Part shown: positions 25,089 through 29,838 of the stretch, piece by piece
How the letters are laid out: every line of letters starts with the position of its first letter
Position numbering within the stretch: the first letter of the stretch is position 1
Source of the DNA: Gammaproteobacteria bacterium
GTDB lineage: Bacteria; Pseudomonadota; Gammaproteobacteria; Nitrosococcales; Methylophagaceae
Length of the DNA: 64,000 nt
Reading direction: 5' to 3'
Assembly: GCA_029248745.1 (NCBI GenBank)
Contig: JAQWIT010000003.1
Span: 248,001 to 312,000, forward strand
The notes under the pieces: model-generated
What the model was told of the DNA's origin: nothing
What the model saw: only the letters and a program-made list of their open reading frames with translations
Database searches by the model: none
Made by a program: the position numbers and the translations under genes

Positions 25089-26044
25089 ATGGCAAATTTA
25101 ATAGACTCAATTGATGAAAGAACGAAACTTACGGGTACGAATCATTTAGAAGTATTACTGTCTAGTCCCGGTACTAATGATGAAACGGGTCGTAATGAAG
25201 TGTTTGGTATTAATGTATTTAAAGTGCGAGAGGTACTGAACATACCTGAAATCACAACTGCACCAGAAGTGCCAGAGGGTGTGGAAGGGTTTGTTAGCCT
25301 TCGCGGAGATATGGTACCGATTATTAATTTATAAAAATTTTGTAATTTACCCTCTGCGGATGAACTTAGAATTCTTATGATTACAGAGTACAACCCACAC
25401 GTTCAGGGTTTCCTTGTTACAGCAGTAGATACGATTCAGCGTCTAAACTGGGAACAAGTTAAAGAGCCACCGCCGTTATTATCTAAACTCTTAGGTGGAC
25501 TGGTAACGGCGGTATCAGATTTGCAAGATGAGCGCCTAGTCATGATTATGGATGTTGAGAAAGTACTGGCTGATGCTGGTGGGTTCTATGAAGACATGAA
25601 AATGGAAAACATTCAGAAAAATTAAATCAGATAAGCAACACACTATTTCATTTGCCGATGATTCTGCGATTGCACGTAAGCAAATAACTCAAACGCTATA
25701 TCACATGGGTGTTAAATACATCCAGAATGTGTATGGGGCGAATGCCTGCGATGCTTTGGATAAAATGGCAACACGTTGTCAAGAAGATGGAACGGATATT
25801 ACGGATGAAATTCAATTAGTCTTGGCGGACGTTGAAATGCCAGAAATGGATGGCTATGTAGAACACAAAAAATTAAATCAGGTCCACGTTTACAGCATCT
25901 ACCGGTCATTATGCACTCGTCTTTAACAGCGGCTGCTAACCAAAATATGGGTAAAATATCGGTGCAGATGCCTATGTTCCAGTATTTGAGCCGCAGGAGT
26001 TGGCAGCAACGATGGAAGAGTTTTTTGCGGCAAATACGACCTAG
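25089..26044 (+). pseudogene. cheV: Decayed cheV (chemotaxis coupling protein)
   Basis: The order is that of CheV, a CheW-like domain followed by a receiver. The CheW part runs from MANLIDSIDERTKLTGTNHL to GDMVPIINL, where TAA at 25332-25334 interrupts the same frame, which then continues KFCNLPSADEL to VLADAGG. A frameshift near 25620 leads to the receiver (TISFADDSAIARKQ, LVLADVEMPEMDGY). Another near 25875 leads to LPVIMHSSLTAAANQNMG, and a third near 25955 to GADAYVPVFEPQELAATMEE with its stop at 26042-26044. One nonsense codon and three frameshifts make this a clear pseudogene. Every piece remains alignable, so the decay is recent. Confidence 0.92.
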
Positions 26045-26078: not shown

Positions 26079-26717
26079 ATGCGCCATATTAACTTCATAG
26101 ATAGTTTTGTTATTGAATGTGACAAAACCATAAAGACACTTTTAGGAAAGCCGGAGACCAGCAACAGGGAAGTCCCAGGTAACACCTTGAGTGAACCGGA
26201 ATTATCTGAAACCCAGAAAGAGCAGTCAATGCGCTTGATGCGCATCAATCACGCAGGTGAAGTGTCAGCTCAGGCCTTGTATCAAGGACAGGCCCTGACC
26301 GCTAAATTGCCTGAAGTGAAAGAGTCGATGGCGCAAGCAGCAACAGAAGAAAGTGATCATTTAGCCTGGTGCGAACAACGAGTCCATCAATTAGGTGGAA
26401 ATACCAGTATTTTTAACCCTATTTGGTACGCAGGGTCATTAGCACTGGGCGCTGTTGCTGGAAAAGTGGGTGATGAATGGAGTTTAGGCTTTGTAGCTGA
26501 AACTGAAACGCAAGTGGTGAAACATCTAGAGCAACACTTGGAGAAATTGTGTGAGGAGGATACGAAAAGTCGCGCTATTCTTGAGCAAATGCGTGAAGAT
26601 GAAGCACATCACAGACAGACAGCAATAGACGCGGGAGGTAAGGCGTTGCCAGAATATCTTAAGCAGACAATGTCTTTAGTTTCAAAAGTAATGATCGCTG
26701 CTAGCTACCGCCAATAG
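26079..26717 (+). CDS. coq7: 2-polyprenyl-3-methyl-6-methoxy-1,4-benzoquinone hydroxylase
   Basis: Coq7 is a di-iron hydroxylase that carries out the last ring hydroxylation of ubiquinone synthesis at the membrane. The 212-residue product contains the carboxylate-histidine motifs of a ferritin-like diiron protein: LMRINHAGEVSAQALYQGQ, ATEESDHLAWCEQR and REDEAHHRQTA. It is a single gene between the cheV relic and a PilZ gene. Its presence fits the cbb3 and ubiquinone-based respiration elsewhere in the window. Confidence 0.95.
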   Translation: MRHINFIDSFVIECDKTIKTLLGKPETSNREVPGNTLSEPELSETQKEQSMRLMRINHAGEVSAQALYQGQALTAKLPEVKESMAQAATEESDHLAWCEQRVHQLGGNTSIFNPIWYAGSLALGAVAGKVGDEWSLGFVAETETQVVKHLEQHLEKLCEEDTKSRAILEQMREDEAHHRQTAIDAGGKALPEYLKQTMSLVSKVMIAASYRQ

Positions 26718-26735: not shown

Positions 26736-27044
26736 TTAGGCTGTTTCCGATAAAGAAATAGAAACATGATAAAGGTTGCTATCCGTATCATCTGCTATGC
26801 AACGCACGACAGCTCCCTCTGCGACGAAAGGAGGCAGCTTTTCATTGCCAGGGTTCATAACAAGTGCTACTTCAGAACCTAATTCAACGGCTTCATCTGT
26901 TGTCATATAAAGACCAGTAGCACTTAAATTCTGACTGGTGCCATGATAGGCTTTGTCATCTTTGCCTCTGATAGTAAACGTGAACAAGGTATCGATACGC
27001 ACTCTAACAAAGCCTCGTTTCTCTTCATATATTTCGTCAACCAC
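26736..27044 (-). CDS. PilZ domain protein (putative c-di-GMP binder)
   Basis: PilZ domains bind cyclic di-GMP and control motility, pili or polysaccharide. The product is about 102 residues and is almost entirely this domain: EEKRGFVRVRI near the start (an R-x3-R-like motif), then NLSATGLYM (the usual D/N-x-S-x-x-G element) and later ALVMNPGN. GTG at 27044 is preferred because GGAG lies 7 bases upstream; a TTG at 27062 is the alternative. A degenerate arginine motif makes ligand binding uncertain. Confidence 0.75.
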   Translation of the reverse strand: MVDEIYEEKRGFVRVRIDTLFTFTIRGKDDKAYHGTSQNLSATGLYMTTDEAVELGSEVALVMNPGNEKLPPFVAEGAVVRCIADDTDSNLYHVSISLSETA

Positions 27045-27161
27045 TCTTACACTCCAAATCAATTGTTTAGCTCATTTATCTGTGATTTTATGCGAAATGA
27101 AATGTCAAAACTGTGGGCTATGTCTGACATCTGGTTAAATACTAGAAAAGAAATGTAAAAC

Positions 27162-27193: not shown

Positions 27194-27637
27194 TTGCAAA
27201 GTAAATGGGGAATAAAAGATGCGTATACACTCAACACAAAATTAGCTGGCTTAGTATTATTTTTAAGCTTAGGAACAGCAATACAAGCACTAGCAGTAGC
27301 TGATGTGCCTTTGGAGCCTATTTATTTTGAACCCCCTGTGATAGAGCGAAATGCTCAAATTGAGCAACTAAGTTGTGTTGGATTAGATAATACTATCCGT
27401 AATATGCAACCTTACCGTTATTCATATAGAGAACCCTTTTATGGAGATAATACAAATAAGGTAGTAGCAGCGATGGTGACTATGGATTTTGTACTCATAT
27501 TGCAAGGTTTAGCAGGTGTTGCTTGTCTTTGGTATTCAGCGACCGTAGAAGAAAAAGAGCAAAGTAGAATGCTCTTAGTAGAGCAGAGTACCGCTCTTTT
27601 ACAGCAGCTAAAAGCAGAAAAACAATGTTTTGAATAA
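27194..27637 (+). CDS. Unrecognised small membrane or exported protein; start uncertain
   Basis: I do not recognise this protein. It has a hydrophobic N-terminus ending LGTAIQALAVA that looks like a signal sequence, a proline-rich segment (PLEPIYFEPPVIER), a cysteine (QLSCVGLD), a second membrane segment (VLILQGLAGVACLWYSA) and a charged helical tail with a last cysteine. The open frame starts at TTG 27194, which has no ribosome site and falls at the predicted transcription start. The better start is ATG 27219 (GGGG upstream), but it reads MRIHSTQN then stop; one extra A in the AAAA run (about 27238) would join it to the frame. It may therefore be frameshifted or phase-variable. Confidence 0.5.
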   Translation: MQSKWGIKDAYTLNTKLAGLVLFLSLGTAIQALAVADVPLEPIYFEPPVIERNAQIEQLSCVGLDNTIRNMQPYRYSYREPFYGDNTNKVVAAMVTMDFVLILQGLAGVACLWYSATVEEKEQSRMLLVEQSTALLQQLKAEKQCFE

Positions 27638-27701: not shown

Positions 27702-27738
27702 CAATGATGATAATGATGTGTCTCGGGAGTGTTTTACG

Positions 27739-28881
27739 ATGAGTACAACAATAGACATCAATGCAAAATGGTTTGAGGGTAAGCAGGGAAAAGCATCAAA
27801 CAAGTCTAAAAAATGGTATCAGGCAAACCGAGTGACACCTTCTAAAACAATTGTGACGCCATGGTATGAAGCGAATAGCCAACCAACAAAGGCGACAGGA
27901 GCACCTTGGTATGAAGCAAATATGAGCGAACATTTAGATACTAAGAAAAAGTGGTATGAAGCCAATTTGAAAGCCGCGGTCAGTTCTGTTAAAGAGACTC
28001 GTCAAAAATGGTATGAAGCCAGTCAACGCGAAAATACAACGAGTACGACACCGTGGTATGAGGCTAACATGCACGTTGACCCACACGCTGATATTAAGAA
28101 AAAGTGGTATGAAGCCAACTTGGAAGCAGCACGTGCGAGTCAGGCGAAATGGTATGAAGCTAATCTAGTCGATACCAAAACGGATAAGCATTGGTATGAA
28201 TTCAGTGATGACAAAGTCAGCGATACCAAACAAAAATGGTATGAGGCTAATCTCGCTGCGGCACGACAAGCTAGGCAAAGCAGACCTTGGTATGGAGCTA
28301 ATGTAGTGGTAGATCCTCATGCTGATGTGAAGAAAAAATGGTATGAAGCCAACTTAGCACTCGCAAAAGAAAAGCAAATAAAAAGTAAATGGTATGAAGC
28401 GAATACCAGAACGGCACGTGCCAGTGAGAACAAATGGTACGAAGCAGCATCTAAGCCAACACCACAGGTTGAAACACCTTGGTATGAAGCGAACATGAAA
28501 CAACATGTTGATGCTAAAAAAAAATGGTACGAAGCGAATTTGGCTGCTGCCTTATATAATGTCAGAGAAACACGGCAGAAATGGTATGAAGCGAATCAAG
28601 CTTCATCACCAGACGATAATGCTACACCCTGGTATGAAGCGAACAAGCCAACAAGCGAACATGCTGATGTGAAGAAAAAATGGTATGAAGCTAATCTAGT
28701 GGCCGCGCGAACAACACGTACCAATAAGCCTTGGTATGAAGCCAATATTGCGGTTGATCCACATGCTGATGTGAAAAAGCAGTGGTATGAAACCAATATT
28801 GCTCTAGCTAGAAAACGAAATGTTAAAAAGAAATGGTTTCAAGCCAGTGCTGAAATGGCAAGAAAGAAACAAGACAAATAA
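27739..28881 (+). CDS. WYEAN-repeat protein (23 Trp-Tyr-Glu-Ala-Asn-type repeats), unknown function
   Basis: I recognise no family. The ATG at 27739 has CGGGAG nine bases upstream; GTG 27718 would add seven residues. The 380-residue product has no signal peptide, no membrane segment and no cysteine. It consists of 23 repeats, each with an invariant Trp: 15 are exactly WYEAN and the others are variants (WFEGK, WYQAN, WYEAS twice-like forms such as WFQAS, WYEFS, WYGAN, WYEAA, WYETN). Tryptophans are 14-19 residues apart, mostly 15 or 17. The residue before Trp is Lys in 14 copies and Pro in 7. Linkers after K-type copies look helical and basic (LAAARQARQ); those after P-type copies often read VDPHADVKK. 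It could be a multi-site binding or scaffold protein, or a multi-core peptide precursor; neither is shown. Confidence 0.85.
   Translation: MSTTIDINAKWFEGKQGKASNKSKKWYQANRVTPSKTIVTPWYEANSQPTKATGAPWYEANMSEHLDTKKKWYEANLKAAVSSVKETRQKWYEASQRENTTSTTPWYEANMHVDPHADIKKKWYEANLEAARASQAKWYEANLVDTKTDKHWYEFSDDKVSDTKQKWYEANLAAARQARQSRPWYGANVVVDPHADVKKKWYEANLALAKEKQIKSKWYEANTRTARASENKWYEAASKPTPQVETPWYEANMKQHVDAKKKWYEANLAAALYNVRETRQKWYEANQASSPDDNATPWYEANKPTSEHADVKKKWYEANLVAARTTRTNKPWYEANIAVDPHADVKKQWYETNIALARKRNVKKKWFQASAEMARKKQDK
27904..28731 (+). repeat. Internal five-unit duplication within the WYEAN gene
   Basis: Repeats 4-8 (residues 56-136) and 16-20 (residues 247-330) share the same order of linkers: an H-x-D-x-KK linker, then a 19-residue spacing ending ETRQ, then a Thr/Ser/Asn-rich linker ending in T-P, then a HAD[IV]KK linker, then L-x-A-A-R. 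The two blocks therefore arose by duplication of a multi-repeat segment. The codons for WYEAN vary (GCA, GCC, GCG, GCT; AAT, AAC), so the copies are not recent. Confidence 0.7.
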
Positions 28882-28926
28882 CATTAACGTTACAAGCCTG
28901 TAAATTAAGTTTAAAGGGATGCCAGA

Positions 28927-28960
28927 AGCCATCGTTGTATATGATACAGCGATGGCTTTT
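28927..28960 (+). terminator. rho-independent terminator after the WYEAN gene
   Basis: AGCCATCGTTGTAT (28927-28940) pairs with ATACAGCGATGGCT (28944-28957) around an ATG loop, with one G-T pair, followed by TTT. It gives the WYEAN gene its own transcript end. Confidence 0.85.
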
Positions 28961-29076: not shown

Positions 29077-29838
29077 TTATTCGCCTAGGCCAACAGAATT
29101 TTTTAAACGTTGAAAAAAACTTGGCTCATCGGCTTCGGAAACTGACGCATCATCAACAGTATCAATTTCAACAGGCTCTGATACTTCTGGTGCTTCTTCT
29201 TTACTCATTCCTATAAAACGTTTGAGTAAGCCCGGTTTACTGTCTTCTTCAACTTCTTGTACGTCATCTTGGATATCAATCACATCTACGGAGTCAGTAA
29301 TACGATCAATAATGCCTTTTGATTGTGTTGGTACTGGAATAGGGCGGTCTTTAAATAAATCGACTTGTTCTTCAGCTTCATCAATCGATTCGTCGTCTTC
29401 CATCCCAATTTTTTCTTTAATTTCTTCGATTAAGCCTACTTTTTTGTTTGATAGAGGGACTACAACATCACTATCAACTTTCACAGTTTTAGGCATTTCT
29501 TCCCGTGCGACAATGCGGGTATCACCACTAAGGTAATCGAGTGTTTCACCTTCAAAATAAACTGTGATACGACGTTGTTCACGTTCACCATTTCCCGGGT
29601 GAAAGCTATAGATATAATCCCAGCGATTAGGGTGAAAGGTATCAATAATTAAAGGCGTTCCCATGACATAAGCCACTTGGTTTTTTGTCATGCCAGGTTT
29701 TAGCTGGCTAACCATATCTTGCGTTATATCGTTACCCTGTTGAATGTTAATACGGTAAACGCCAGGGATTTTATCTTTAGTGCAGCCCGACAGGAACAAA
29801 ACAAAAAACGAAAAAGTGTAAATGAGGACAGTTTTCAT
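29077..29838 (-). CDS. bamE: Outer membrane assembly lipoprotein BamE/SmpA with long acidic extension
   Basis: BamE is a lipoprotein of the Bam complex. The N-terminal part is standard: a signal ending FLFLSGC (C19), then the SmpA/OmlA domain with LKPGMTKNQVAYVMGTP and WDYIYSFHPGNGE, to about residue 115. The product is 253 residues, whereas E. coli BamE is 113. The extra half is acidic and carries four similar short amphipathic segments (about residues 134-145, 174-185, 202-212 and 239-251), such as VGLIEEIKEKIGM and PSFFQRLKNSVGL. The gene diverges from fur, as is common in gammaproteobacteria. Confidence 0.92.
   Translation of the reverse strand: MKTVLIYTFSFFVLFLSGCTKDKIPGVYRINIQQGNDITQDMVSQLKPGMTKNQVAYVMGTPLIIDTFHPNRWDYIYSFHPGNGEREQRRITVYFEGETLDYLSGDTRIVAREEMPKTVKVDSDVVVPLSNKKVGLIEEIKEKIGMEDDESIDEAEEQVDLFKDRPIPVPTQSKGIIDRITDSVDVIDIQDDVQEVEEDSKPGLLKRFIGMSKEEAPEVSEPVEIDTVDDASVSEADEPSFFQRLKNSVGLGE

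Follow-up and report, generated by a model that had tools for sequence, protein, structure and literature searches.

EPYC1 and CsLinker, linkers of the algal pyrenoid, are repeat chains, present in close relatives only, whose regularly spaced helices lie in weakly ordered linkers, and both are proposed to act as multivalent cross-linkers (PMC11570498). Repeated helical elements 20–120 residues apart were the criterion used to find pyrenoid linkers (PMC11570498). Among bacterial proteins, the N-region of CsoS2, a disordered scaffold of the alpha-carboxysome, carries a short repeated helical motif that binds Rubisco (PMC10614612). The protein described here, an array of WYEAN repeats from Methylophagaceae, resembles EPYC1 and CsLinker in its repeat chain, in the predicted arrangement of its helices, in its restriction to close relatives and in the cross-linking role that we propose for it; however, its copies lie closer together and are more numerous, and no family or structure match connects it to them. 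With the CsoS2 N-region it shares the repetition of a short, putatively helical motif, whereas CsoS2 has four motifs of another sequence as well as shell-binding parts. The repeat locus showed no carboxysome genes, and searches of Pfam, NCBIfam and PDB revealed no homology to CsoS2 or to the EPYC1 family. On the best reading, the WYEAN protein may be a functional analogue of EPYC1, CsLinker and the CsoS2 N-region. To our knowledge, no Rubisco partner is to be expected in RuMP methylotrophs.

The gene lies in a window, i.e. the whole stretch of DNA that was analysed, of 64,000 nucleotides (Table 1). A first-pass annotation, made from the sequence alone, had described a frame of 380 residues with 23 Trp-centred motifs, 21 of them starting with WY and 15 reading exactly WYEAN, spaced by 14–19 residues and free of cysteine. 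All of these counts were reproduced: the two remaining units read WF, and the gaps between successive Trp residues are 15, 16, 15, 15, 19, 15, 17, 15, 14, 15 and 17 residues for the first eleven and 17, 17, 15, 15, 15, 19, 16, 17, 17, 17 and 17 for the others. The protein is basic (K+R = 67 versus D+E = 48; pI 9.5), and across 2000 shuffles of the same composition WYEAN occurred at most once per sequence. The ribosome site and the gene's own probable terminator, both announced earlier, were found as well; the terminator hairpin folds with −29 kcal/mol (z = −6.8) and was not picked up by a simple terminator scan. A search of the locus for structured RNA in Rfam gave no match.

Table 1. Features of the repeat locus, numbered from the first letter of the window
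Feature	Position	Strand	Description and basis
coq7	26079..26717	+	Pfam COQ7; fixed upstream landmark by synteny
PilZ-domain protein	26736..27062	-	Pfam PilZ; frequent upstream neighbour by synteny
A2, predicted exported protein	27194..27637	+	147 aa; EPIYFEPPV motif, two invariant Cys; usual upstream neighbour
Ribosome-binding site GGGAG	27725..27729	+	Sequence; ATG 9 nt downstream
WYEAN repeat protein gene	27739..28881	+	380 aa, 23 Trp units, 15 exact WYEAN; ATG at 27739, last stop base at 28881
First super-repeat, residues 42-230	27862..28428	+	Internal duplication alignment
Second super-repeat, residues 233-378	28435..28872	+	Shortened copy of the first
Probable intrinsic terminator	28924..28960	+	17-bp hairpin, 3-nt loop, then T-rich tail
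bamE	29077..29838	-	Pfam BamE; fixed downstream landmark by synteny

The number of 23 copies holds, yet the copies are not free-standing units; alignment of the protein with itself arranges them in two tandem super-repeats. The same layout, with super-repeats of about 130–190 residues each, is found in most long members of the family, and members with 15–16 Trp residues consist of a single array. Among 633 pooled units, W is present in all (1.00), Y in 0.86, E in 0.74, A in 0.80 and N in 0.84, and there is little information outside of this contiguous pentad. K, P or H can precede the pentad; it is unchanged after K or P and kept less strictly after H, and many Trp units directly follow KKK. 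The commonest gap between Trp residues is 15 residues (272 of about 600 gaps). The best conserved stretch lies within the first super-repeat, at residues 57–95, with the invariant columns PWYEANMxxHLDxKKKWYEANLKAAVxSVxxTRxKWYEA.

Comparison of the window gene with its close orthologues gives a dN/dS of 0.08–0.09 overall, with 0.02 in the WYEAN pentads versus 0.11–0.14 in the linkers. Family members carry 12–29 Trp residues in about 200–430 amino acids, and the 28 members that were aligned all lack Cys and have a pI of 8.9–9.8 at a net charge of +6 to +30. Almost all units of the close orthologue L003 pair best with the counterpart at the same position; in distant members this one-to-one pairing is lost for many units, while residues 57–95 remain nearly invariant throughout the family. 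Since positions match in L003 and this stretch is kept family-wide, the units are not freely homogenised. The linkers, too, show positional conservation between genera. Such position-specific identity of the repeats exceeds the needs of a plain array of stickers; it counts against a purely generic linker and may indicate a specific assembly.

Methylophagaceae are a family of methanol and methyl-sulfide consumers. A search of 192 genomes recovered orthologues in 53 of the 57 Methylophagaceae genomes included and in no other genome, at a single locus flanked by coq7 and bamE; by their named records, the carriers belong to Methylophaga or to uncultured relatives listed under Piscirickettsiaceae. 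A restriction to one strain, which would have spoken against the first-pass annotation, is thereby ruled out. Four genomes of the family gave no copy of the gene: the reduced genome G029 of 1.1 Mb, G022 with 1.2 Mb at 84% completeness, G051 at 85% completeness, and G031, which belongs to a separate genus and is 97% complete. With a profile built from the 28 members, no true relative was detected in sampled, overlapping sets of 369 genomes of the class and 398 of the phylum. Two matches were rejected as distant relatives: G438 yielded an ordinary pentapeptide-repeat protein and G399 the tail of a DEAD-box helicase with SKKRWGN repeats. This C-terminal helicase tail (L080, 4501-6078) is in itself a run of SSxDxSRDSKKRWGN-like repeats.

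Searches of Pfam, NCBIfam, PHROGs, PADLOC, the PDB sequences and Foldseek gave nothing credible, which bears out the earlier statement that no family with such a repeat is known; a literature search for "WYEAN" returned unrelated words only. The array is superficially similar to the Trp/Tyr-rich helical repeats of Sel1 and TPR proteins, and a Sel1 chain was hit weakly in a profile search (E = 0.051). However, the Sel1/TPR unit comprises 34–36 residues versus 14–19 in the WYEAN array, no solenoid is predicted, and the 28 members show scattered weak and unrelated Pfam matches but none to TPR or Sel1, so that membership was rejected. Weak matches to pentapeptide repeats arise from the common letters EANL, although the array has no five-residue period. 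An origin from phages or mobile elements was rejected as well, as the viral contigs, phages and plasmids that were searched hold no relative of the gene. No DNA coding for WYEAN occurs outside of the repeat gene in 11 genomes; therefore the pentad is not a tag shared with other proteins, and no client carries it. The WYEAN repeat proteins are thus a real, conserved and lineage-specific family without a known relative in the searches made.

AlphaFold2, run on the monomer with an alignment of 28 rows, drew seven long unpacked helices (residues 57–98, 116–143, 162–180, 195–237, 248–288, 308–328 and 343–379) with weak linkers between them, at a mean pLDDT of 58.7 and a pTM of 0.19. No residue reaches a pLDDT of 90 and 129 residues fall below 50, yet most residues are drawn as helix; given this low confidence, only the lack of a predicted packed fold is taken as evidence. 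A Foldseek search with the model yielded no match. In this low-confidence model the helix starts are 33–60 residues apart, i.e. within the range of 20–120 residues by which pyrenoid linkers were found (PMC11570498). The linkers had been called basic and amphipathic before. They are basic but not measurably amphipathic, as the hydrophobic moments of the predicted helices are not above those of shuffled sequences (14–79% of the shuffles reach the observed value). For this reason a phasin-like or amphipathic coat protein was dismissed as unsupported.

The locus is framed by coq7 on one side and by bamE and fur on the other. A2 adjoins the repeat gene in 20 of 21 fetched loci and in the window. 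It is undetectable in the reduced genome G018, where the repeat gene and a beta-carbonic anhydrase are kept; hence A2 was rejected as an obligate partner. Distant relatives of A2 in other Gammaproteobacteria (loci L062–L079) have no repeat gene alongside. The A2 family as such extends over several families of Gammaproteobacteria and has no name in Pfam or NCBIfam. The beta-carbonic anhydrase (Pro_CA, PF00484) lies downstream of the repeat gene on the same strand in 18 of the 21 fetched loci and in G018, in most relatives between the repeat gene and bamE, and is absent at the locus in the window, L042 and L051. Because some carriers lack one or the other next to the repeat gene, neither the carbonic anhydrase nor A2 is an obligate client encoded at the locus, and the synteny is perhaps historical, since no neighbour is indispensable and relatives of A2 occur without the repeat gene.

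A metallo-beta-lactamase-fold protein often intervenes at the locus, and a LonB/LonC-like protease is often found upstream of A2. Some relatives carry, in place of the Lon-like gene, genes for an OmpA-like protein, a response regulator and a histidine kinase (L047, 3323-7363), which may resemble a dedicated-sortase regulatory set. A CheV-like gene (CheW domain plus receiver) at 25089-26030 (+) of the window is split into several short frames; it is intact in relatives, e.g. at L044, 2119-3081.

Based on this dataset, we hypothesize that the WYEAN protein is a cytosolic, lineage-specific multivalent scaffold which presents a linear motif and cross-links a partner, a reading to which we give about an even chance. 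The repeat array, the strong constraint, the variable copy number and the occurrence in Methylophagaceae only, among the genomes searched, are observed, and the helices are predicted to be unpacked. A contiguous pentad that stays invariant after K and P, and largely after H, is what a linear motif recognised by a partner would typically look like. In the proposed mechanism, a basic and loosely structured chain would present 12–29 copies of (K/P/H)-WYEAN on short helices separated by flexible linkers. Each pentad would dock weakly to the same site on an oligomeric or polymeric partner, and one chain could cross-link many copies of this partner into a cluster or condensate. Because all pentads would dock at the same site, the copy number would be free to change while the sequence of the pentad stays fixed. 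Binding, clustering and a protein as the partner, as opposed to self-association or nucleic acid, we infer. The dN/dS of 0.02 in the pentads, the range of 12–29 Trp residues while the pI stays at 8.9–9.8, and the confinement to close relatives argue for a scaffold; the motif spacing of 14–19 residues, tighter than in known linkers, the low confidence of the model, the lack of WYEAN-coding DNA outside of the gene in 11 genomes and the positional identity of the repeats argue against it. The helical multi-site binder or scaffold proposed in the first-pass annotation thus gains from the conserved pentads, the variable copy number, the unpacked helices, the positive charge, the selection and the lack of a known family, and loses its amphipathic character.

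A partner may also be a nucleic acid or another polyanion (nucleoid, RNA or polyphosphate), with the charged Lys runs and stacking or cation-pi contacts of Trp and Tyr as the means of binding. All 28 aligned members are basic and KKK stands ahead of many Trp residues, which fits a polyanion binder; however, the pentad stays constant over a five-fold range of net charge, its invariant residues include E but not K, and the K at position −1 is swapped for P or H in many units. Polyphosphate in particular is disfavoured, since G031 and G022 encode polyphosphate kinase but lack the repeat gene, so that the kinase does not track it. We regard a polyanion binder as rather unlikely. Quite doubtful, in our opinion, is a self-assembling structural protein whose helices pair via stripes of Trp and Asn to form a filament, a lattice or the coat of a granule. 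The order of the super-repeats, kept across genera, and the dominant spacing of 15 residues, which is near four helical turns, would suit such an assembly, but the hydrophobic moment is no higher in the real sequence than in shuffles, the helical phase from Trp to Trp is only half coherent because gaps of 17 and 19 residues are common, and the AlphaFold2 model, of a monomer only, shows no packing. A scaffold made specifically for the neighbouring beta-carbonic anhydrase, with a role in the handling of CO2 and bicarbonate in C1 metabolism, is suggested by the frequent presence of this enzyme downstream, even in G018, where A2 is undetectable. We consider it very improbable: the window gene is strongly constrained although the enzyme is missing beside it, and bamE and fur are conserved equally, which may indicate plain synteny.

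The first-pass annotation had also proposed a multi-core peptide precursor and had noted, as a point against it, the lack of a radical-SAM maturase beside the gene. The latter is true of the loci, where no maturase of any kind was found in those read, but it is incomplete, as an unlinked pair of MNIO and DUF2063 genes exists elsewhere in the genomes. In this reading the WYEAN pentads of a ribosomal peptide precursor would be modified, e.g. by the MNIO of the genome, and perhaps excised. The short invariant core in each repeat fits a precursor, an MNIO (PF05114) is present in 4 of 4 carriers tested and in 51 of the 57 genomes of the family, and in 3 of 3 loci read it stands with a DUF2063-like partner and without an adjacent bufferin-like precursor. 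Some MNIOs target a C-terminal Asn or Asp, or a Phe residue (PMC12452194). As residues other than Cys can be modified, and as the pair lacks an adjacent precursor, this reading is kept at low weight. On the other hand, there is no leader, because the first Trp unit of the aligned members stands at about residue 10; Cys and a signal peptide are absent; the linkers are conserved across genera; MNIO is not linked to the repeat gene and occurs in G031 and G022, where that gene was not found; and a SPASM radical-SAM protein is absent from the carriers G000 and G018. The MNIO-modified precursors bufferins, MovA and ApyA are comparable in that the carrier genomes hold MNIO and DUF2063, whereas the WYEAN protein has neither their leader nor their Cys, nor a linkage to MNIO. 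The proposal is weakened accordingly, and we give a multi-core precursor hardly any credence. The DUF2063-like gene follows the MNIO gene in three loci, at L095 3556-5149 (G000), L096 4401-5997 (G018) and L097 3879-5454 (G038), and was confirmed by Pfam for G000.

To return to the linear-motif scaffold, the gene is near-universal, confined to a single locus and strongly constrained in a family of marine methylotrophs, and it has no known relative. If it encodes a client-binding linker, this would be a rare bacterial example outside of carboxysomes, with a uniform sticker of five residues present 12–29 times, and the natural variants in copy number would allow the effect of valence on clustering to be studied. 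Methylophaga aminisulfidivorans and M. lonarensis are cultured hosts, so that the question is directly testable. As a far-reaching and improbable extension, the WYEAN array could build a hitherto undescribed membraneless compartment of methylotrophic bacteria in which an enzyme central to C1 or CO2 metabolism is clustered, a shell-less and independently evolved counterpart of the pyrenoid linkers; such an enzyme comes to mind because the locus usually holds a carbonic anhydrase. Hexulose-phosphate synthase, like polyphosphate kinase, does not track the repeat gene, as G031 and G022 have both enzymes but not the repeat gene. In the reduced genome G029, no hexulose-phosphate synthase exceeds the family cut-off and polyphosphate kinase is a broken trace. 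Most of the family genomes tested hold two hexulose-phosphate synthase genes about 2.5 kb apart (in G000 at C9:6158-9452, and likewise in others).
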